NCBI RefSeq assembly: GCF_014696615.1
Contig: NZ_JACJQJ010000087.1
Coordinates: forward strand, 1 to 33,303
Direction: 5' to 3'
From: Nostoc linckia FACHB-104
Lineage (GTDB): Bacteria > Cyanobacteriota > Cyanobacteriia > Cyanobacteriales > Nostocaceae
DNA: 33,303 nucleotides
This document shows positions 14,109 to 32,054 of this stretch, piece by piece. Under the pieces are notes generated by a model, which saw nothing but the letters and a program-made list of their open reading frames with translations, had not been told where the DNA came from and ran no database searches. The first letter of the stretch is position 1; every line of letters starts with the position of its first letter. Position numbers and translations under genes: made by a program.

Positions 14109-16385
14109 ATGGAAAATATAGATAATAATGCTTCGTCAACTACGAAAGATGATGTCGTCAACAGCGAGATAGAGACAGCAGCACAGGAAGAGGGAATTAA
14201 CCCAGATGCTATAAGGCCAAATGATCCTTCTTATAACCGTCAGTGGGGTTTAGAAAAGATAAATGCACCCGCAGCTTGGAATTATGCTCAAGGTAGTAAA
14301 AGTGTAGTTGTAGCTGTTGTTGATACTGGTATTGATTACAAGCATCCTGACTTAGCTGCGAACATTTGGACGAATACCAAAGAAATCTCTGGTAATGGCA
14401 TTGATGATGATAACAACGGCTATGTTGATGACATTCATGGTTGGGATTTTGGTGATAATGACGGCGATCCGAATGAAAATGACACCACTAAACCCAGTTA
14501 CGGTCATGGCACTCACGTAGCAGGTATTCTGGGTGCTGTAGGAAACAACAACCTCGGTATTACCGGAGTCAGCCCCAATGTCTCCATCATGGCCACAAAG
14601 CATTACCGAGCAGGCGATTCACAAGGGTATTTGTGGGATGTTCCCAAAGGCATCAGATACGCTGTAGATAATGGCGCTAAAATTATCAACCTCAGTTTAG
14701 GCTCCAGTTCTTTTGACCAAGCACAATTGGACGCTCTGACCTATGCAAACCAACAAGGTGTTTTAGTCATAGCTTCAGCTGGTAATAATGGTCGCGATAA
14801 TGATGTGACTCCATACTATCCAGCCAATTATGATCTGCCCAATATCATTACCGTTGCATCTCTCGATAAAAATGAAACCGATAAAAAAGAAAATGAAAAG
14901 TTATCTAGTACCTCCAGCTACGGTGCCCAAAGTATAGATATAGCTGCACCTGGGGTAAAGATTTATAGTACCTTCCCTAATGCTCAATATGCTACATGGG
15001 GTGGCACCTCAATGGCTGCTCCTCTTGTGGCTGGTGCTGCGGCTTTACTTTTGGCGGCTAATCCCAAGTTCACAGTATTAGAACTCAGACATGCCATTCT
15101 CTCCAGCGTTCAGCAAGTCGCTTCTTTGCAAGGCAAGGTGAATACTGGTGGATACTTAGATTTGTCTCAATTATCAAAATTTCTGCCAAAAACCGGGTCT
15201 AAACCGGATAATTTAATCAATAATGCGGCTGATCCATCTGCTACAGAGGCAGTTCGGATTCAAGCCGAAAATTATAACGATGCGTCTGATACTACACCCA
15301 ATAATGAAGGAAGAATTTATCGCTCAGATTTAGGTGTAGATATTGAGAGCAGTGCTGATAATAGTGGTGGCTTTAATGTCACTGGAATGAAAGCAGGGGA
15401 ATGGTTAAAATATAGTTTCGAGGCAAAAGCTGGATTTTATAAAATTGTATTCCGAGTTGCCGGTGAGGGTAACGGTCAAAAGCAACTTCAGGCTGTAATT
15501 GACAATCAGCTAGAGCGTTCTGTGAGTTTTGCTGCTACAGGCGGTAATCAATTATGGACAGATGCGATCGCTCAAGGAGTGAGTTTGAGTGCAGGTATTC
15601 ATGAACTGCGCCTAAATGTACTCTCAGATGATTTCAATCTCAACTACATTGACTTGATTCCCACCACTACAGCTTACGGTGGTAGTGGCAATGACACTAT
15701 CTCTGGCAATGCTGATAATAATACTATCTATGGCGGCGCTGGTGATGATAGCCTTAGTGGTGCTTCAGGCAACGATACCATTTATGGTAATGATGGCAAT
15801 GACTCCATTGACGGCGGCAATGGTGACGACGTTCTGAATAGCGAAAATGGTAATGACACCATAACAGGTGGTGCTGGGAATGATACAGCCAATGGTGGTG
15901 CTGGGAATGACAGAATCAACAGCGGCCCTGGAAATGACAACCTCAATGGCGAGGGTGGCAATGATAACCTCTCTGGTGAAGCAGGTAATGACAACCTCAA
16001 TGGTGGTTCTAGCAACGATACCCTCACAGGTGGTGCTGGCAATGACACTCTCATAGGAGGTAATGGCAGAGATGTCTTAACAGGTGGTGATAGTAACGAT
16101 GTTTTGATAGGTGGACTGGGTAATGACACCCTTACAGGTGGTTTGGGAAGAGATATCTTTGTCTTTGATTCTCTATCTGATAGGACAGATGCGATCGCAG
16201 ATTTTTCTCGTTCAGATGGAGATAAAATCAAAATTGGTTCTAGCTTTGGAACTAACCTGAGTCTGTTCAGCTATGACAACAGTACAGGCGCTTTGACCTT
16301 TAATAATGGAACTAATCCTATTCAGTTAGCTACCCTAAACACTAATTCTCTGTTTAGTATTCCTGACGATATTATTTTTTCATAA
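14109..16385 (+). CDS. Subtilisin-like (S8) serine protease with CBM6-like module and C-terminal RTX repeats
   Basis: 758 aa, modular. Residues ~45-355 are a peptidase S8 domain with the full triad: Asp72 (AVVDTGIDYKHPDL), His133 (GHGTHVAG) and Ser301 (GGTSMAAP), plus oxyanion Asn226 (SAGNNG). Asp/Asn-rich loops (GNGIDDDNNGYVDD) probably bind calcium. Residues ~382-520 resemble a CBM6-type beta-sandwich (RIQAENYND... GEWLKYSFEAKAGFY... NYIDLIP). Residues ~525-690 are about 16 GGxGNDxxx RTX repeats, then a C-terminal cap (DIFVFDSLSDRTDAIADFS). There is no N-terminal signal peptide, consistent with type I secretion by the uncleaved C-terminal signal. Likely an extracellular calcium-dependent protease that may bind polysaccharide sheath. 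No ABC exporter genes are in the window. Confidence 0.93.
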   Translation: MENIDNNASSTTKDDVVNSEIETAAQEEGINPDAIRPNDPSYNRQWGLEKINAPAAWNYAQGSKSVVVAVVDTGIDYKHPDLAANIWTNTKEISGNGIDDDNNGYVDDIHGWDFGDNDGDPNENDTTKPSYGHGTHVAGILGAVGNNNLGITGVSPNVSIMATKHYRAGDSQGYLWDVPKGIRYAVDNGAKIINLSLGSSSFDQAQLDALTYANQQGVLVIASAGNNGRDNDVTPYYPANYDLPNIITVASLDKNETDKKENEKLSSTSSYGAQSIDIAAPGVKIYSTFPNAQYATWGGTSMAAPLVAGAAALLLAANPKFTVLELRHAILSSVQQVASLQGKVNTGGYLDLSQLSKFLPKTGSKPDNLINNAADPSATEAVRIQAENYNDASDTTPNNEGRIYRSDLGVDIESSADNSGGFNVTGMKAGEWLKYSFEAKAGFYKIVFRVAGEGNGQKQLQAVIDNQLERSVSFAATGGNQLWTDAIAQGVSLSAGIHELRLNVLSDDFNLNYIDLIPTTTAYGGSGNDTISGNADNNTIYGGAGDDSLSGASGNDTIYGNDGNDSIDGGNGDDVLNSENGNDTITGGAGNDTANGGAGNDRINSGPGNDNLNGEGGNDNLSGEAGNDNLNGGSSNDTLTGGAGNDTLIGGNGRDVLTGGDSNDVLIGGLGNDTLTGGLGRDIFVFDSLSDRTDAIADFSRSDGDKIKIGSSFGTNLSLFSYDNSTGALTFNNGTNPIQLATLNTNSLFSIPDDIIFS

Positions 16386-19644: not shown

Positions 19645-20529
19645 CTATAACTTCTGCAACAACTCCTGAGTTAACTGCAGAAATGCCTTAGAACCAGGAG
19701 ATTGCGGACTCATTAAAACAGCTGGCATAAAACTATCAACAGCCTTAGCCACATTCACATCAATGGGGATTTGATTTTTACAAATTTTTTCTACACCAAA
19801 ATCTTCTACAACGCGATGCATTACTTGTTTGTAGTATCTGCTAGTTAAAAGATTGGAACTCGACATACTAAATACTATACCCAGCATTTTTATATCGATT
19901 TTCGCTTCATGTTCGTGACTATCTTTTAATTGTCCAATGCGTCTTTCTAACAATTGAATACCTACTACAGATAATGGTTCTGGTTTAGCAGGTAAAATAT
20001 AGAAATCACTACAAGCCAAAGCACTACGAGTTAAAAGATTATAGCCAGGGGCACAGTCCAAAATTATAAAATCATACTCTTGCCGAACTGGTTTGAGGAT
20101 GTTATTAATTAACACCCTTTCAAACCGATTCCAAACCATTTCAAAATCCTGCTCACCCAACGCCACTGATTGTTGATGCAGCATTTCTGAAACAACAAAT
20201 TCATCGTATAAATCGATATCTCCTGGTAATAAATCTAATCCAGGTAACTTACAAACATTGGCGTGAACGATATCTTGAATCGTCAATTTAGCATCCGGTT
20301 CGGGAGCGATAACTTGGTCTATTAGATATCGAAATGTCTTTCTATTTTTCCGCCGCTTGGCAAATTCTAAAGGCGACATCAAACTGAGTGTGGCGCTAAT
20401 TTGGCTATCTAAATCTAGAACCAACACCCGCTTGCCATGATACTTAGCTAAACAAGTAGCTAAATTAACCGTAATGGTGGTTTTACCGACACCACCTTTC
20501 ATATTTGCAGTTGCAATTACATATCCCAT
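19645..20529 (-). CDS. ParA/MinD-type ATPase, no ParB partner
   Basis: 294-aa deviant-Walker ATPase: KGGVGKTT (Lys11 signature lysine, Lys16), Walker A' VLVLDLDSQ (Asp41), and Walker B YDFIILDCAPG (Asp158). Members dimerise on ATP and bind DNA or membrane to position plasmids, chromosomes or protein machines. There is no N-terminal HTH, so it is not a P1-type autorepressor. No ParB-like gene or obvious parS array is adjacent. It lies 185 bp downstream of the exonuclease-nuclease-FtsK gene on the same strand, so it may be the last gene of that cluster or have its own promoter in the gap. Alternative roles include positioning of the FtsK-fusion complex; that is inference from position only. Confidence 0.88.
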   Translation of the reverse strand: MGYVIATANMKGGVGKTTITVNLATCLAKYHGKRVLVLDLDSQISATLSLMSPLEFAKRRKNRKTFRYLIDQVIAPEPDAKLTIQDIVHANVCKLPGLDLLPGDIDLYDEFVVSEMLHQQSVALGEQDFEMVWNRFERVLINNILKPVRQEYDFIILDCAPGYNLLTRSALACSDFYILPAKPEPLSVVGIQLLERRIGQLKDSHEHEAKIDIKMLGIVFSMSSSNLLTSRYYKQVMHRVVEDFGVEKICKNQIPIDVNVAKAVDSFMPAVLMSPQSPGSKAFLQLTQELLQKL

Positions 20530-20714
20530 CGGTTAAGTCCTTTGGTGACGCATCCCCATTTAGGTAGCGTACACCCCTCCTGATATATGGAAATTTTCGT
20601 TAAATTTAATATTTCTGAAATGCACAAAGTGATTCCAGTGACATTGCCGTGATTGAGGCAGTCAGAATTATAGCAGTGAGTAGCACATTACTAACAATTA
20701 AGAAAAAATTAGTT

Positions 20715-23276
20715 TTAGGCTAACGGTAGTTGAATTTTAGTCGCTAATAAACTCTGTAGACGTTGCAGCTGCGGCCCGACTTGGTAAAGTAAATCACCTT
20801 TCCCTAATAAGTAAGCTGCTGAAGTTGATGTACCACCTAAAATAATTTTGGAATCTGCTTCACTTCTGGTGCTGAGGGCAATTCTTCCTGGTAAATTAGA
20901 GCGAATTAGAGGGGTAACAATCCCAGCTTCCGGACGTTGAGTGGCAATAATCAGATGGATTCCCGCCGCCCTTGCTTTTGCTCCCAATCTTTTAATACTT
21001 TGTTCTAATGCAGTGCGAATTTCTTTTTCTGCCATAAAGTCCGCATATTCATCAAAAATACAGACAATCCGAGGAAGAGATAGTGAGCAACGTTGGTTAT
21101 AACTAATCAAATCAGCACAAGCAGCTTTCTCAAACCTTTGGTAACGAGACTCCATTTCTGCAACTAATTCATCCATTAGTTCAATAGCGCGATCGCTATC
21201 CTTGACAATAGATGAGTAAGACCAAGACATTTGCTCAAACTCTGGAAACGTCACCCGTTTAGGATCAACCAGGGCGATTTTCAGGTGTTGAGGGGAATAA
21301 CGACATAGTAAGCTGAGGAGGAGCGATCGCAAAAATTCACTCTTACCACTCCCAGTTGTACCCCCAACCAAAAAGTGACAGGTATTCGGATCAGATAAAT
21401 CAGCTTCTATTAGTTCTCCTTCTAAATTCACCCCAACCGCAATTTTTACAGGTGCATTTGCGGGTAAAGGTTGCGGCTGAATATAAGTTTCAAAGTGAGC
21501 AATTTGCCGATCTGAACGTGGTAAATCTATACTGACATATCCAGCTTGTGGTGCAATCAAAGGCGGATTTGCTAAACCTAACTGCACTTGCAAATCATTA
21601 GACAACCGAAGAATAGAATTGACACTCACGCCTAAATGAGGTTTTAGCTTCACCCGAATAAAAGCAGGCCCTACAGCAGCACCTTGATAATCAACTTTAA
21701 TTTTAAAAGATTGCAAGGTAGTAACTAATTGTTCACCAATTTCATCGCCTAATGTTGATGTATCTTCATCTTCAATTGGCGGTTTTGGAGTGTCCACTTC
21801 TGCATTCACAAAAAAAGTCTGACACTTTTGTTGCTGGGGACAAATTTCACACAGATAAGGCTGAGTTGTTCGTGGTGGTGAATTGGGATGAGGCGGTTCC
21901 CAAGTCAACCATTCTTGCATTTGTTGCAATTTATAGGGAATCAACTGATGCACAGTACTTTCTAGCTGTTCCCAAGAATATTGATACTCTTTAAATTCTG
22001 GTAAAACACAGTAAACTGCTGACTCAACAGGTACTTTTTTCTTTTGCCACAACAAATAACTATAAAGTGAAACCTGCGCTAACTGTGCTGATGGATCTAC
22101 AGGTTGATATGTTTTAAATTCCACCACACAAAGGCGATTGAGTTCAAAATTAAAAACTAAACAATCAAATTCTCCCCTAACTCTTTGCTGTGTCCCATTA
22201 GGGAGACTAAAGTAATGCTCAACGCTGCGTTCTCCAGAGAGAAAGGTATTACTAATAACTGTTTCTGCATTGCAATAGCGCCGATTAATTACCAACAATT
22301 CTGCAAAGCGCTTAATTAATCCTTGTAAACCTTGCCAAACTTGTAAAAGTGCTTGAGCTTGACTACCATCTTTTGCAACTGCTTCCTGTAGATAGGGAAA
22401 GAATTCTAATTGATAAAATATTTGTTGCATTTGTGAGGCTACTTCCTCTACCTTTATTTGTGAAGCCTCTGGTTTAAATAAAGCTTTAAATTGCGGTTCA
22501 ATCGCGGCTAATTTGACAAATTTATCTGCTAATTTATGAAATGGATTCCCAATGCCAATAGCTGTATCTGGTGGTAAAAATATTGCCTTATCACCAAATT
22601 TATGATTTAGATAGAATAAGCGGGGACACTCAAAAGCTAAACGGACTTTAGTCACGGTTAAAGATGAGTTCTCTGATTTTGCTCTTACCTCTTGTGAGCC
22701 ATTATTTTCCATATCAAAAATATTAATTACAGCATTGGGATTTGATATTTCTAGTAAACGACGATGCACAGCCGCCAAATAAACCGTATCCATCGCCGCA
22801 TATTTTAGCTGCTTGTCGCTGAGAGGACGCTTTCCCCAATCACTTCCCTGTTCTTCTATATCTACATTAGAGAAATTGCAGAGTTCTGCTGCTAAAGTCT
22901 TCAGTTTTAAATTGGAAACTTCCAGTCGTTGACGAGTAATTTTTCTGGCTAATTGTAAAGTACAGGTAACATTCTTTGCTAGCTTGCCTCCTAAATACTT
23001 TACGTCATAGCCAGCATTGTGAAAAATCTTCTCAATATTGGCATTACTCATGATTTGGTTAACAAAATATGCTGCCAAATCACGTTTATTTAAGACATCG
23101 AGAATATAAGCAGATACACCTGTTGAGTCTGCCGGATCAGCTAATACCTGAATCAGCGATAATTTGGGATAGTAAGTATTCCAGTCAGCAGTTTCTGTAT
23201 CTAACCAAAGAATTTTAGCAGATGCTAACTTAGATATTAATTCCCGGATTTCCGCAGCTTCTGTCAGGTATTGCAT
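20715..23276 (-). CDS. DEDDy exonuclease / Cas4-like PD-(D/E)XK nuclease / FtsK translocase fusion
   Basis: 853 aa with three enzymatic modules. (1) Residues 1-185, RNase D-type 3'-5' exonuclease: Asp26 and Glu28 (LDTET), Asp91 (NAGYD), and Tyr159-xxx-Asp163, a full DEDDy set. (2) Residues ~205-490, Cas4/AddB-like nuclease: Cys217 (FECPRL), His247 (GNPFHKLAD), Asp371 (GEFD), Glu386-x-Lys388 (VVEFKT), Gln401-xxx-Tyr405, and Cys476, Cys479, Cys485 (CxxCx5C), the complete Fe-S staple. (3) Residues ~515-853, FtsK alpha/beta motor: Walker A GGTTGSGKS (Lys645), DPKRVTF, Walker B CIFDEYADF (Asp742), ATQRPEAG and LLGKGDLL. There are no N-terminal membrane helices and no C-terminal gamma winged helix. 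It starts 23 bp after the AAA gene. A cytosolic motor that pumps duplex DNA into nuclease sites is the obvious inference. Confidence 0.92.
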   Translation of the reverse strand: MQYLTEAAEIRELISKLASAKILWLDTETADWNTYYPKLSLIQVLADPADSTGVSAYILDVLNKRDLAAYFVNQIMSNANIEKIFHNAGYDVKYLGGKLAKNVTCTLQLARKITRQRLEVSNLKLKTLAAELCNFSNVDIEEQGSDWGKRPLSDKQLKYAAMDTVYLAAVHRRLLEISNPNAVINIFDMENNGSQEVRAKSENSSLTVTKVRLAFECPRLFYLNHKFGDKAIFLPPDTAIGIGNPFHKLADKFVKLAAIEPQFKALFKPEASQIKVEEVASQMQQIFYQLEFFPYLQEAVAKDGSQAQALLQVWQGLQGLIKRFAELLVINRRYCNAETVISNTFLSGERSVEHYFSLPNGTQQRVRGEFDCLVFNFELNRLCVVEFKTYQPVDPSAQLAQVSLYSYLLWQKKKVPVESAVYCVLPEFKEYQYSWEQLESTVHQLIPYKLQQMQEWLTWEPPHPNSPPRTTQPYLCEICPQQQKCQTFFVNAEVDTPKPPIEDEDTSTLGDEIGEQLVTTLQSFKIKVDYQGAAVGPAFIRVKLKPHLGVSVNSILRLSNDLQVQLGLANPPLIAPQAGYVSIDLPRSDRQIAHFETYIQPQPLPANAPVKIAVGVNLEGELIEADLSDPNTCHFLVGGTTGSGKSEFLRSLLLSLLCRYSPQHLKIALVDPKRVTFPEFEQMSWSYSSIVKDSDRAIELMDELVAEMESRYQRFEKAACADLISYNQRCSLSLPRIVCIFDEYADFMAEKEIRTALEQSIKRLGAKARAAGIHLIIATQRPEAGIVTPLIRSNLPGRIALSTRSEADSKIILGGTSTSAAYLLGKGDLLYQVGPQLQRLQSLLATKIQLPLA

Positions 23277-23299
23277 TGACTAAAATATTTCAGCAAAGA

Positions 23300-25372
23300 C
23301 TATAAAGCAATCAAACAAATCAATTGGTCTTGTAACTTAGCTTTGGGATTAATGATTTTCACTTTCTTTTCTTGACATAATAATTCAATCAAATGTTTAG
23401 TTTCAGATTCTTGCACATCAGAAAAGTGACTAACTGCTTGTGAAATTAAAGTAGGCATTCCCATATAGCCTTGCGTTTTGACTAGATTTAATAAAAAATC
23501 TTTGACAGGTCGTAAATCTTTTTTACCATTTCCTCCACCGTTACCTCCGTTGGAAGTTTGTTTAGGAACAATTCCTAAGTCCTGTAACAACATACATTTA
23601 TCTAATATTTTGGCTTCACGCATTAAACTTTGCAGTTGTTGCAAATTTATAGTTTTACCTGCAATTACTAATTCCTGTGCTAGTGCAGAATTAACCAAGC
23701 TTTGGTATGTTGCCAAGTAGTGAACAGAAGATAGACTAGGCTTAATATGATGATGATTGGTGTGTGTAAAAATCTGTTGATATATTTGATTGCCAACAAG
23801 CCTAGGTGTTCCTACTCCTCCAATGCGAATTAGGTAAAGAGTATGGCAGAGATTTTGTTGAATAACTCTTTGACAAGCATTCATAATATTGAAAAAGCTC
23901 ATCATACTTGAATCTTCAGTCCAAACTATACCTATTCTTTCCTGCTTATTAGGCTTTTGATAGCTCAAAGAAAAACTAGCAAAATTACCACTTAAGAGTT
24001 TATATTTAATTTCCTGTATTTGTAACGCCGCTAGTGCCTCTTGCAGCATCCGGATTAAATCTGGTGAGGATAACAAGGCAATTTTGGTAATTTTTTCCTG
24101 GTTTTTTATATATTCCTTCTGCCATAGTAATTGAAATTCTGCCTGAGTTATATCTGTCCCCTCTTTATCATTTCCTGAAGTACCTGGTTCATCAGTAATA
24201 GGCTCACCTGTATCAGGTTTTGATGGTGATATCTTGAGCTTATATTTTTGATACTCATTACGACCCAGAATTAACGTATTTCTGGGCATGGTTTTACCAC
24301 CAGGGTAATGTTGATCTAATACTTGTCTACTCAATGGAAAAATCGGAGAATCAGGCTGTGAATTTGCTTGTCTATGTAGTTGTTGCAGCTGATAAATCCA
24401 GAGTGCCTCAGCCTGTTCAAGTGTAATATGTTTTAACTGAATTGACTTATAAATTCCTGCTTTGTCTGCTGGCTGAATACGGTCAAGATTACGCTTCCAT
24501 GTACTAGTAATAACACTGATAATTACTAAAAAACTTTTTAGTCCATCACCATGTATAGTTGTATTTACATTTAAAAAAGGTTGTATGTCTAAAAAACCAT
24601 CTGGCATCTGAGGCATAGTATCTAAATTATCAAAGCACAAAACTATTGGTTGAGTTTGTGTTGCAATTCTGCCAAAATTTGCCAAAATATTTTTAGCTGC
24701 ATCTTCTGTATCAATACAATGCTTTAATTTTAATGCTTGCATTGATTCTTCGCTTAAATCATCTCCACGTAACCATTCACAAGCTAGGTCATATAATTCT
24801 GGATTTGTTAGGTCATGTAATACTCCAAAAAAGATGTCAGGATTATAAATACTAGCTTTTTTATAAGTATCTTTTAGGTGTTTAATAAACTTTTGACGAT
24901 CGCTTTGTAATACTCGCCAAATGGCATCATTAAATAATCGCTGCTTTAAGTTACGTTTGGTAAAGGCAGATAAACTTTTGAGCCACAGCATTAACTGTGA
25001 ATCTTGCTCACCCTCTGGAATTTTGATTAAGCTATCAATAGTAGAGCGTAAAATATGCCGCCAAATATTACCACTATCAGCCCAGTTACAGAGAATATAG
25101 GCGAAAAAAGCTTTAGGGTTGAGGGTACGTTTAAGCCTACCTAATAAATAGCTTTTACCTGAACCGGAATCACCTGCCAGCAAAACTGTGCGGCTAACAT
25201 TATCTGTAGCTACTAAGTTGAGTAATTTTTCAATCTCAATAATTGCTTCTTGATGAATTGAATCAACTGTGAGCGTAGCATCTTGTGTATCGCTCCAGAA
25301 ATTCATCGGCTTCAACTTTATCTGGTCAAAGGGGTTGACATCTCGTTTAATAATCTCATTGATTTCAGTCAT
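23300..25372 (-). CDS. Orc/Cdc6-like P-loop ATPase with C-terminal winged helix
   Basis: 690 aa. DVNPFDQIKLKPMNFW, then Walker A AGDSGSGKS (Lys73) and Walker B VLCFDNLD (Asp248) place it among AAA/STAND-type ATPases; the motif order and the DNLD box resemble Orc1/Cdc6 and related NTPases. A middle helical region follows, then about residues 435-600 (from ALLSSPDLIRMLQEAL to LVIAGKTINL) that I do not recognise. A Gly/Asn linker (GGNGGGNGKK, near 615) leads to a ~70-residue C-terminal segment with winged-helix pattern. It sits between the wHTH gene (56 bp upstream) and the FtsK fusion gene (23 bp downstream), so it is probably a loader or regulator for the motor-nuclease. That role is inference. 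Confidence 0.8.
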   Translation of the reverse strand: MTEINEIIKRDVNPFDQIKLKPMNFWSDTQDATLTVDSIHQEAIIEIEKLLNLVATDNVSRTVLLAGDSGSGKSYLLGRLKRTLNPKAFFAYILCNWADSGNIWRHILRSTIDSLIKIPEGEQDSQLMLWLKSLSAFTKRNLKQRLFNDAIWRVLQSDRQKFIKHLKDTYKKASIYNPDIFFGVLHDLTNPELYDLACEWLRGDDLSEESMQALKLKHCIDTEDAAKNILANFGRIATQTQPIVLCFDNLDTMPQMPDGFLDIQPFLNVNTTIHGDGLKSFLVIISVITSTWKRNLDRIQPADKAGIYKSIQLKHITLEQAEALWIYQLQQLHRQANSQPDSPIFPLSRQVLDQHYPGGKTMPRNTLILGRNEYQKYKLKISPSKPDTGEPITDEPGTSGNDKEGTDITQAEFQLLWQKEYIKNQEKITKIALLSSPDLIRMLQEALAALQIQEIKYKLLSGNFASFSLSYQKPNKQERIGIVWTEDSSMMSFFNIMNACQRVIQQNLCHTLYLIRIGGVGTPRLVGNQIYQQIFTHTNHHHIKPSLSSVHYLATYQSLVNSALAQELVIAGKTINLQQLQSLMREAKILDKCMLLQDLGIVPKQTSNGGNGGGNGKKDLRPVKDFLLNLVKTQGYMGMPTLISQAVSHFSDVQESETKHLIELLCQEKKVKIINPKAKLQDQLICLIAL

Positions 25373-25428
25373 ACTAAAACTGTGATGATAGAGCGAACTA
25401 ACTTTGAATTCAAAAATTATCTGACAGG

Positions 25429-26259
25429 CTAATAATTCACGGTGAGAAAAAACAGTGAACCACCAATATTTTGAGGAATACCTGCATCAATTTGTTCAGG
25501 AGTATATGCGCTTACTTCTTGCAGGGAACTTAACTCAAGTTGGTCATTTTTTTGCAACCGATACAAAGCCTGATCTAATTCATCCCGTGAAAGCGGCGGT
25601 TGTAACTTTTGCCGCAGATGGAAAATAGGTAAATAATTCTCCGTACCCATTTCCTTATCTAACTTCTCGATAATCCCTAAAATTTCTTCATCAGAAACTG
25701 CTTCTCCGCCAGGTGGTGGTGGAATAATATCTGACTTCTCCCGCAGAGTTTTCCGTAAAAACCGTAGGTAATTACCCAGCAATTCCAAACTGATAACAGG
25801 GTTCGAGCCTTTTTTAGGACTGTAATTATCCCGCAATTCCGCAATTCCTCTTTCAGTCAGCCAAACTTCGGCTTTAGTTTTTTTAATTCCCCATTCAGCG
25901 TCAATCAATCCCCGTTCACTTAGGGTTTTCAATATCACATCTCGTTCAGCAGCTTTTGGCGAGGTGATTTTGCTAGGGGCGATTTTCCCAGAAGCTTGAC
26001 TTATCTTCTCCAGTACCTTAAGTTCTTTATCTGTGATTGGAACTTGGGCTGCATCAAGCTTCAGCAGCGCTTGACCTGGCGGTAAAATTTTAACTGTGGC
26101 AATCTCACGGGTATAGTCTACCAGTTCGCGATCGCCCAAACTTTTACAAATTTTGTTTTTATCACCTTTAAAAACATCAAAGGTGCTGGCGCTAAGACTA
26201 GAGCGATAATTGGTACATCCCAACAACTTGAGTAGAAACTTTAACTCGTTCGTTTCCAT
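25429..26259 (-). CDS. Tandem winged-helix protein, first gene of the FtsK-fusion operon
   Basis: 276 aa, soluble, no catalytic motif. Residues ~75-145 (ITDKELKVLEKI... RDVILKTLSERGLID... VWLTERGIAELRD) read as a winged helix. Residues ~185-260 (DEEILGIIEKLDKE... LPIFHLRQKLQPPLSRDELDQAL, then LYRLQKNDQLELSSL) read as a second one, ending in a PQNIGGSLFFLTV tail. The first ~60 residues (LLKLLGCTNYRSSLSA) may be another small helical domain. Winged helices usually bind DNA or partner proteins, so this may give sequence or partner specificity to the downstream ATPase and motor-nuclease. I do not recognise a named family. The ATG at 26259 is the first in-frame start and has only a weak AGGCAAG upstream. 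Confidence 0.7.
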   Translation of the reverse strand: METNELKFLLKLLGCTNYRSSLSASTFDVFKGDKNKICKSLGDRELVDYTREIATVKILPPGQALLKLDAAQVPITDKELKVLEKISQASGKIAPSKITSPKAAERDVILKTLSERGLIDAEWGIKKTKAEVWLTERGIAELRDNYSPKKGSNPVISLELLGNYLRFLRKTLREKSDIIPPPPGGEAVSDEEILGIIEKLDKEMGTENYLPIFHLRQKLQPPLSRDELDQALYRLQKNDQLELSSLQEVSAYTPEQIDAGIPQNIGGSLFFLTVNY

Positions 26260-26478
26260 ACTAGTAATCTTGCCTGTATCTAATTAAGCATTAAGCACTA
26301 CTCTAGCTTGAACAGCAAAAATTGACACACTTTCCTGATCGTAGCACTAGATTCTCTAGCTACCGGAAAGAAGGCGATCGCATATACATTGTTTCTCATT
26401 GATTGAGTAAATCTAACTTCTCTGTGCTCATAGTTTGATTGTGAAAAGCCTAAAGTATTAATTACCAATCAAATAAAA

Positions 26479-26506
26479 ATGGTGCGTTAATTAAGTAACG
26501 CACCAT
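26479..26506 (-). terminator. Rho-independent terminator of the GT2 gene
   Basis: Perfect 11-bp stem ATGGTGCGTTA / TAACGCACCAT around a 6-nt loop. Read on the minus strand it is followed by TTTTATTTG. It lies 88 bp after the GT2 stop and 220 bp before the wHTH gene, separating the two minus-strand units. The remainder of 26260-26593 shows no gene. Confidence 0.75.
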
Positions 26507-26593
26507 AAACTATGGGATAGAAGACAATTTATTTTTTATTATTCTTTTAATTTCTAATTCCTATCTACCCGCTTTTGCGATAAATACTTGCGC

Positions 26594-31424: not shown

Positions 31425-32054
31425 CTAGTGTTCAAATATATCTTTATATTGCAATAAATCTAAGGAAACAATTGTTGGTAGAACTTGAAAACATTCTTGA
31501 GCAAGTTGCCAACGTTCTTCTCTTTTAAGCATAGCAATTAATTTGTCTTTAACACTGAGTAAATAGCGCACATCATTAGCAGCATAATTCAACTGTTCTA
31601 CAGATAAATTAATAGCGTTACCCCAATCAGAACTTTGAGCGCTTTTATCAAGTTCGACTTTTTCTAATTCCTGCACTACATCTTTTAGCCCGTGACGATT
31701 GGTATAAGTACGAGCTAATTTACTAGCTATTTTTGTGCAAAAAACAGGCTGAACGGTAATGCCTAAGTTGTAACGTAAAGTAGCAATATCGAAACGGGCA
31801 AAGTGAAATACCTTCTGGATATTAGCTGCTTCTAACAGTTTTTGTAAGTTTGGTGCTTCAGTTTGCCCTTTGGCAATGCGAACTGCAGTTACTTGGCCCT
31901 CTAGGTTACACAGCTGGACAAGACAAAGGCGATCGCGCTGTGGTAGTAATCCCATTGTTTCCGTATCAACAGCGATCGCCTCTGATTTTAAATACTGAGA
32001 TAGAGCAGTTTCGCTAAGGTCGCGATCGCTCACCTGAAAATCTTGTAATGTCAT
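31425..32054 (-). CDS. Ribonuclease D-type DEDDy exonuclease, single domain
   Basis: 209 aa. Catalytic set complete: Asp30 and Glu32 (VDTET), Asp89 (ARFD), and Tyr157-xxx-Asp161 (YAANDVRYL). It lacks the C-terminal HRDC domains of E. coli RNase D (375 aa), as is usual for the short cyanobacterial/alphaproteobacterial form, and probably trims RNA 3' ends. It shares SSDWG...LSxxQLxYAAxDxxYL with the N-terminal module of the FtsK fusion 8 kb away, so the two are clearly homologous. A strong hairpin lies 19 bp before the start. Confidence 0.9.
   Translation of the reverse strand: MTLQDFQVSDRDLSETALSQYLKSEAIAVDTETMGLLPQRDRLCLVQLCNLEGQVTAVRIAKGQTEAPNLQKLLEAANIQKVFHFARFDIATLRYNLGITVQPVFCTKIASKLARTYTNRHGLKDVVQELEKVELDKSAQSSDWGNAINLSVEQLNYAANDVRYLLSVKDKLIAMLKREERWQLAQECFQVLPTIVSLDLLQYKDIFEH

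Follow-up and report, generated by a model that had tools for sequence, protein, structure and literature searches.

An operon ending in a DEDDy/PD-(D/E)XK/FtsK fusion in Nostoc linckia: a probable counter-invader system, seldom found together with a restriction endonuclease-ParA/ParB-like pair

The window analyzed in this work was a stretch of 33,303 nucleotides of Nostoc linckia FACHB-104 (Nostocaceae; assembly GCF_014696615.1, contig NZ_JACJQJ010000087.1, positions 1 to 33,303), and its subject was a gene for a triple fusion of a DEDDy exonuclease, a PD-(D/E)XK nuclease and an FtsK motor, the last gene of a three-gene operon. We concluded that the operon is probably a counter-invader DNA-processing system of the Orc/CDC6-HerA/FtsK 'capture' class. 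The fusion was thereby placed in a predicted FtsK-based anti-invader class, as a member that is common in cyanobacteria and has its active sites intact. In addition, a new, near-exclusive occurrence of the fusion and of an unrelated gene pair, encoding a restriction endonuclease-ParA (REase-ParA) protein and a ParB-like protein, was observed in the window's family. As the genomes concerned are otherwise near-identical, this either/or exchange amounts to a natural experiment on a shared function, defence versus chromosome upkeep. Neither this exchange nor this cyanobacterial fusion was found in the open literature searched, subscription papers, figures and supplements being outside its scope. 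The features of the operon were as follows, with lengths in amino acids (aa).

20715..23276, minus strand: triple-fusion gene, 853 aa, ATG start (open reading frame (ORF), Pfam, alignment, structure model)
22752..23273, minus strand: DEDDy 3'-5' exonuclease domain, aa 2-175 (Pfam DNA_pol_A_exo1, E 2.5e-31)
21819..22661, minus strand: PD-(D/E)XK nuclease domain, aa 206-486 (Pfam PDDEXK_1, E 1.4e-11)
21519..21764, minus strand: FtsK alpha domain, aa 505-586 (Pfam FtsK_alpha, E 4.2e-10)
20931..21458, minus strand: FtsK/SpoIIIE motor, aa 607-782 (Pfam FtsK_SpoIIIE, E 6.6e-37)
23300..25372, minus strand: AAA690, an Orc1/Cdc6-like AAA+ ATPase of 690 aa (Pfam, structure model, Foldseek)
25429..26259, minus strand: wH276, 276 aa, first gene of the operon (weak winged-helix matches; profile 65-142 and 193-249)

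The triple fusion, proposed in a sequence-only reading of this DNA, was confirmed as a single ORF in which all four Pfam domains exceeded the curated cut-offs (for PDDEXK_1, 45 bits with the cut-off at 22). The PD-(D/E)XK core, expected there at about 205-490, was found by Pfam at 206-486, and the domain borders in the structure model agreed. The fusion was no assembly artefact, since it was found again, at the end of the operon, in other genomes of the order. The catalytic and cysteine residues named in that reading were invariant or nearly so in an alignment of 89 sequences, made up of the window protein and of 88 proteins from the loci, none shorter than 85% of it (the nine of L085-L093 possibly repeat species; L084, with 651 aa, was excluded). 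Y159, D163, C217, H247, D371, K388, Q401, Y405, C476, C479, C485, K645 and D742 were found in 89/89. D91 was present in 87 (2 gaps), D26 in 86 (2 gaps, 1 E) and E28 in 86 (2 gaps, 1 R), and position 386 was E in 84/89 and D in 5/89.

The structure model of the fusion had a mean predicted local distance difference test score (pLDDT) of 83.5 and a predicted template-modeling score (pTM) of 0.46; because of the latter, the placement of the domains relative to each other was unreliable. Low-confidence stretches at 183-203 and 491-505 coincided with the domain borders. The motor part superposed on Pseudomonas and E. coli FtsK (Foldseek, target TM 0.72-0.79 among the FtsK rows listed), and by sequence comparison its match to solved FtsK extended C-terminally of the Pfam borders. 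The presence of the FtsK alpha domain, which was missing from the sequence-only reading, identified the motor as FtsK-like rather than HerA-like; the Pfam scan gave no match to an FtsK gamma domain. In a motor tree, the fusion motors grouped with cyanobacterial FtsK proteins (support 100/98) and weakly with SspH (76/20), so that a derivation from SspH was not supported; the tree was small, with long branches and a midpoint root, and 5 of the 18 fusion rows, the window's included, were removed by the length filter. Viral homologues matched in 41/41 loci within residues 461-850 only, i.e. on the motor side. Dna2, which also appeared in the Foldseek list, gave a long, poor superposition and was not taken as proof.

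The PD-(D/E)XK part gave a weak match to a Cas4 profile (PADLOC, E 1.1e-4). Its four-cysteine spacing is one that we take to resemble Cas4/AddB, and this Cas4/AddB-type nuclease is predicted to bind an iron-sulfur (Fe-S) cluster. Solved relatives of the DEDDy domain, found by sequence matches in the structure database, included RNase D, Rrp6 and NrnC; its substrate might be DNA 3' ends, RNA or dinucleotides, between which the sequence does not distinguish. A free-standing exonuclease of 306 aa, encoded on contig C103 of the same genome (L198:6530-7450), was about 55% identical to the DEDDy domain and is its possible source or sister; similar proteins were found in many genomes of the order. 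A second DEDDy exonuclease of the window (31425-32054, minus strand, 209 aa; DNA_pol_A_exo1, E 1.8e-41) was about 30% identical to the N-terminus of the fusion.

The three genes lie on the same strand in the order wH276, AAA690 and fusion, with intergenic gaps of 56 bases between wH276 and AAA690 and of 23 between AAA690 and the fusion. The structure model of AAA690 (pLDDT 87, pTM 0.84) comprised an AAA+ region at about 41-380, an alpha/beta region at about 436-600 and a winged-helix-like C-terminal end at about 621-690, where the helix-strand order of a winged helix was read from the model. Its best Foldseek matches were Cdc6/Orc1 initiators, and these were weak (E 5e-5, query TM 0.23). Two sequence classes of AAA690 (14 and 37 loci) diverged within residues 1-420 and were nearly alike within 421-600. 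Tandem ATPase pairs were seen in several genomes, and Walker A- and B-like motifs were present in 24/24 copies listed.

AAA690 was co-inherited with the fusion. Among the best 80 of 146 relatives of the fusion in GTDB species genomes, 73 loci extended 3.2 kb or more upstream, and 71 of these had both wH276 and AAA690; the exceptions were L013, without wH276, and L072, without both, and seven further loci were too short to judge. Across 252 genomes of the order, AAA690 was found in 78/80 genomes with a PD-(D/E)XK-bearing module versus 25/172 without one. In this set, AAA690 (103 genomes) means hits below 1e-100, and the fusion, full or as a large partial copy, was counted in 73/252 with broken and contig-edge copies included. 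The earlier idea of a DNA-degrading translocase was supported. That of a machine made of one polypeptide was not, since an Orc-like ATPase and a winged-helix protein accompany the fusion.

Among 291 genomes of the phylum the fusion was seen in the window's order only. Outside this sample an exception was found, a copy on a plasmid of Pseudanabaena, which belongs to a different order (L105; plasmid typed as conjugative). Its relatives showed patchy presence, broken copies and module shuffling. The DEDDy domain was missing or free-standing in some of them, being absent from the Pseudanabaena plasmid copy (688 aa) and L169; a DEDDy-PD-(D/E)XK protein without the motor was encoded in L185, L190, L194 and L195 (488-491 aa), and the PD-(D/E)XK nuclease alone adjoined the ATPase in L176-L178. 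Domains were also added: tetratricopeptide (TPR) and pentapeptide repeats preceded the full fusion in L179 and a motor without recognizable exonuclease in L191, and in L103 a protein kinase was inserted and the nuclease was a separate ORF.

It was proposed that AAA690 with its winged helix, aided by wH276, would recognize or load on DNA of a certain state and pass it to a hexameric FtsK motor, each subunit of which would bear two nucleases. The motor would pump duplex DNA past the Fe-S-type PD-(D/E)XK nuclease, which would cut it, and 3' ends or small products would be trimmed by the DEDDy domain. Invading or misplaced DNA is the most likely target. Defence was favoured because of the kinship with the published class, the accretion of domains (a feature linked to conflict systems in the portion of PMC10853773 consulted), the patchiness, the decay, and the plasmid copy close to a DpdE/ZorD-like SNF2 helicase. 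This SNF2-type helicase (L105:5253-8435; DpdE and ZorD models, E to 1e-129) is encoded upstream of the plasmid-borne operon and is a point for defence beyond the neighbouring ORFs described below. A gene for a SWIM protein was also observed upstream of that operon. The conserved gene order, the co-inheritance with AAA690, the two sequence classes of AAA690 and the likeness of the motor to SspH, a subunit of a phage-protecting system, were likewise counted for the counter-invader reading.

The neighbours of the fusion's relatives were scanned in 33 loci selected by name, which for the most part lie outside Nostocales (exceptions L044 and L050). From 32 loci 133 ORFs were picked and 121 were scanned, after the exclusion of nine touching a locus end and of one each in L044, L105 and L170; the L105 ORF is the SNF2-type helicase above, and the L170 ORF, scanned separately, showed glycosyltransferase, DUF4915 and TPR domains (Pfam). 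Matches were obtained to 53 PADLOC families, among those listed AbiEi/AbiEii, type IIG and type II enzymes, Csx1 and a Cas12f-type protein; none was found in more than two of the 121 ORFs at 1e-15, a count taken with no control loci.

Several observations weigh against a defensive role. These neighbours were mostly ordinary genes with no recurrent PADLOC family, and AAA690 and wH276 matched nothing better than about 1e-4 among the PADLOC and NCBIfam models. The fusion shows good conservation, with 63% mean column identity over 38 sequences, and, unlike typical mobile defence genes, resides at one chromosomal site in many Nostocales. Further, 196 of the 208 genomes of the window's family carried the fusion or REase-ParA, an either/or pattern that suits a maintained function at least as well as defence.

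The REase-ParA protein combines an HSDR_N-type nuclease N-terminus (E ~1e-5) with a ParA ATPase and is unrelated to the fusion; its partner is a ParB_N-like protein (E 3e-6 to 4e-3), sought in the fetched loci only. The unit recurred near fusion loci. In the 208 family genomes, 84 had the fusion only, 103 REase-ParA only, 9 both and 12 neither; a full fusion was thus present in 93 and an intact REase-ParA in 112 (Fisher 5e-34, uncorrected for ancestry). When remnants and partial copies were counted, 28 had both, 79 the fusion only, 97 REase-ParA only and 4 neither. The exclusion was weaker in the whole order, where 9 of 252 genomes had both, 64 the fusion only, 84 REase-ParA only and 95 neither. 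The Fisher values ignore shared ancestry, which the genus counts answer only in part: both fusion-only and REase-ParA-only genomes occurred in 18 of 52 genera, the window's genus holding 4 and 4.

The 93 full fusions included shortened or split ones (G272, G095, G601, G498, G542, G541 and G149) and that of G529, a genome with 38% contamination; five genomes with a DEDDy-PDDEXK protein only, nine with remnants, and G499, with an FtsK-motor match only, were excluded. The 112 intact REase-ParA genes, which pool two subtypes only ~27% identical, included three seemingly cut short (G611, G628, G548) and four found as two hits in one frame (G574, G168, G085, G019). Thirteen partial REase-ParA matches were excluded, nine of them in full-fusion genomes. 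Among these nine, G481 and G493 held clear pieces, G497 was split at contig ends, and six, possibly of another ParA family, matched over the ParA part only (~290-330 aa).

A direct swap was seen next to the window's chromosomal ParA gene.

20673..26592, strand not applicable: block-exchanged segment, replaced by REase-ParA and ParB-like genes in L204 of the same genus
19645..20529, minus strand: chromosomal ParA, 294 aa, often adjacent in Nostocales; not part of the exchanged block
26479..26506, minus strand: terminator-like hairpin (by consensus match), in the gap that separates the operon from the glycosyltransferase gene

In L204, 5,920 bases of the window were replaced by 2,535, and the flanks were 97% and 96% identical. 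In each of the four same-genus genomes with REase-ParA, homology to the window ended at 20672 towards ParA; the ends on the other side were 26593, 26598, 26621 and 26465. The breaks of L202, L203 and L205 lay at or near the two breakpoints of L204. The hairpin was weak evidence of a terminator, three such hairpins having been found versus 5.2 expected in shuffles. Elsewhere in the window, a subtilase with CBM6/35 and RTX repeats was encoded beside ileS (14109-16385, plus strand) and was 70-88% identical between same-genus loci, where ileS was 93-99% identical.

Decay was observed as well. In L098-L101 and L214 a broken fusion stood next to an intact REase-ParA gene, the ParB-like gene itself being shortened in L098, L101 and L214, and six of the nine family genomes with only fusion remnants carried an intact REase-ParA. 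The reverse, clear REase-ParA pieces in a full-fusion genome, was seen in only two (G481 and G493). Among 13 fetched REase-ParA-only loci, ParA adjoined the pair in nine and not in four, whose genomes had ParA elsewhere; therefore, shared occupancy of one site is not the whole reason for the exclusion. ParA as an obligatory fourth subunit was rejected, since loci such as L064 and L066-L071 have the operon without ParA and ParA remains where the operon was swapped out. Two islands of less than 20 kb (L161, L183) held a wH-AAA-fusion operon, the REase-ParA/ParB-like pair and a second wH-AAA-AAA unit. In G357 and G441 (L194, L195) a motorless DEDDy-PD-(D/E)XK protein lay beside ParA and the pair, and the genome search gave no match to an Orc-like ATPase in either.

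These data bear on a rival explanation by genome maintenance, in which the operon and the pair would serve, each in place of the other, a single task tied to the orphan chromosomal ParA, for example the removal of copies of a polyploid chromosome that are broken or unpartitioned. We regarded it as unlikely. It would account for exactly one module being present in 187/208 family genomes and neither in only 12, for the 18 mixed genera and for the block exchange beside ParA, which was found in 19 of 20 genomes tested. Also in its favour, the strong ParB_N matches of G531 and G466 lay off contig C1 and those on C1 were weak (four genomes tested), and cyanobacteria lack a classical ParABS according to excerpts of the review PMC7766704. 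However, the fusion was unseen beyond the order in the phylum sample, the four pairs away from ParA and the plasmid copy fit it poorly, nine genomes had both modules, and 95/252 genomes of the order, where the exclusion is weaker, had neither. A related view, that in Nostocaceae the operon and the pair are unrelated machines for one nearly obligatory chromosome job, of which one decays when they meet, was considered possible but doubtful. If it were true, no genome could do without a nuclease tied to an ATPase that moves or positions DNA, and an unrecognized step of DNA quality control or segregation in polyploid cyanobacteria would be indicated.

Two further explanations were weighed. A double-strand-break resection enzyme for general recombination, analogous to AddAB or HerA-NurA as the sequence-only reading had suggested, would suit the domain content and the absence of RecC from 252/252 genomes; however, RecC was absent irrespective of the fusion, so that its absence carries no information on a replacement of RecBCD, an idea that was dropped, and most genomes of the order live without the fusion. 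This explanation was judged very unlikely. A phosphorothioate-dependent restriction module in place of DndFGH was held to be highly improbable. DndC was found in 216/252 genomes of the order, SspH was the PADLOC family closest to the motor, and dndFGH is reported absent from Nostocales in the part of PMC8569181 consulted. However, DndC occurred in 67/73 genomes with the fusion versus 149/179 without it (p=0.11), i.e. with no clear association, and a phosphorothioate partner was not favoured because DndC was present with or without the fusion. The one-contig genome G046 had the fusion, separate from wH276-AAA690 (L186, L187), and no DndC match. Neither AAA690 nor wH276 was matched by the PADLOC models of SspF and SspG, which do detect the genuine proteins. 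The counter-invader reading was retained and compared with known systems.

AddAB and HerA-NurA share a motor-plus-nuclease logic. The motor of the fusion differs in being an FtsK with an alpha domain, neither of superfamily 1 (SF1) nor HerA. No helicase was matched by Pfam in the three operon proteins, and thus no SF1 helicase with or beside the nuclease as in AddAB/RecBCD; NurA gave no Pfam match to E 1 and HerA profiles matched only around the P-loop. The PD-(D/E)XK core, the Q..Y motif and the four cysteines are presumably shared with the Cas4, AddB and Dna2 nucleases, from which the fusion nuclease differs in lacking a helicase and being coupled to an FtsK motor.

The likeness to SspFGH consists in three genes, one Walker-A ATPase and one protein with a C-terminal FtsK motor, and in SspFGH the loss of any of the three genes abolished phage protection, according to the excerpts of PMC8092258. 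SspH was the best PADLOC family for the fusion motor (E 2.8e-63); however, SspH is ~1,770 aa long and the fusion matched only its positions 1399-1738 of 1766. The SspF and SspG models gave no match to AAA690 or wH276 at 0.1, while the three Ssp models recognized real SspF, SspG and SspH in cyanobacterial loci L094, L095 and L097, where the profiles of AAA690 and wH276 found nothing among these neighbours. An identity with SspFGH was ruled out, as only the motor of the fusion fits its models. The three loci carried complete-looking SspF-SspG-SspH sets, and in L094 SspF has a long fused N-terminal part that gave kinase-like matches in PADLOC. DndFGH, as given in portions of PMC10853773, shares a REase, a HerA/FtsK motor and a winged helix-turn-helix (wHTH) subunit; the make-up of DndH (SWI2/SNF2-like, inactive DAM, TRD, REase, HerA/FtsK) was not encountered here, and the Pfam scan of the fusion up to E 1 matched neither SNF2 nor DAM. 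On a plasmid of Burkholderia glumae (L225), dndD is directly followed by an FtsK gene, which may belong to the DndD-linked FtsK class described in PMC10853773.

The closest relatives were the operons with Orc/CDC6, REase, wHTH and HerA/FtsK described as predicted counter-invader systems in 2024 (PMC10853773, main-text portions), so that the earlier statement of no named system with this architecture is out of date. In that class, an inactive REase sits between AAA+ and wHTH of the Orc/CDC6 ATPase, the neighbourhoods encode an active REase, a HerA/FtsK motor (with FtsK alpha in one set) and a wHTH protein related to DndG/SspB, and a 3'-5' exonuclease is fused to the motor in some operons. The window operon correspondingly has an Orc/CDC6-type AAA+ protein with a C-terminal winged helix, a predicted active REase (PDDEXK_1, catalytic residues conserved in the alignment), an FtsK motor with FtsK alpha, a 3'-5' exonuclease on that motor and a wHTH-like gene. 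The domain-by-domain match was close, with two less certain points. The 436-600 region of AAA690, in the position of the inactive REase, showed no obvious ExK motif and matched no REase fold, and wH276, as the further wHTH of the class, gave weak winged-helix matches only. Unlike the class as described, the window joins two nucleases and the motor in one chain, and the main text of the paper (figures and supplements aside) contains no mention of Cas4, cyanobacteri, RecB, Fe-S or Nostoc. The window operon is a cyanobacterial variant of the Orc/CDC6-HerA/FtsK class, equipped with a Cas4/AddB-type four-cysteine nuclease.

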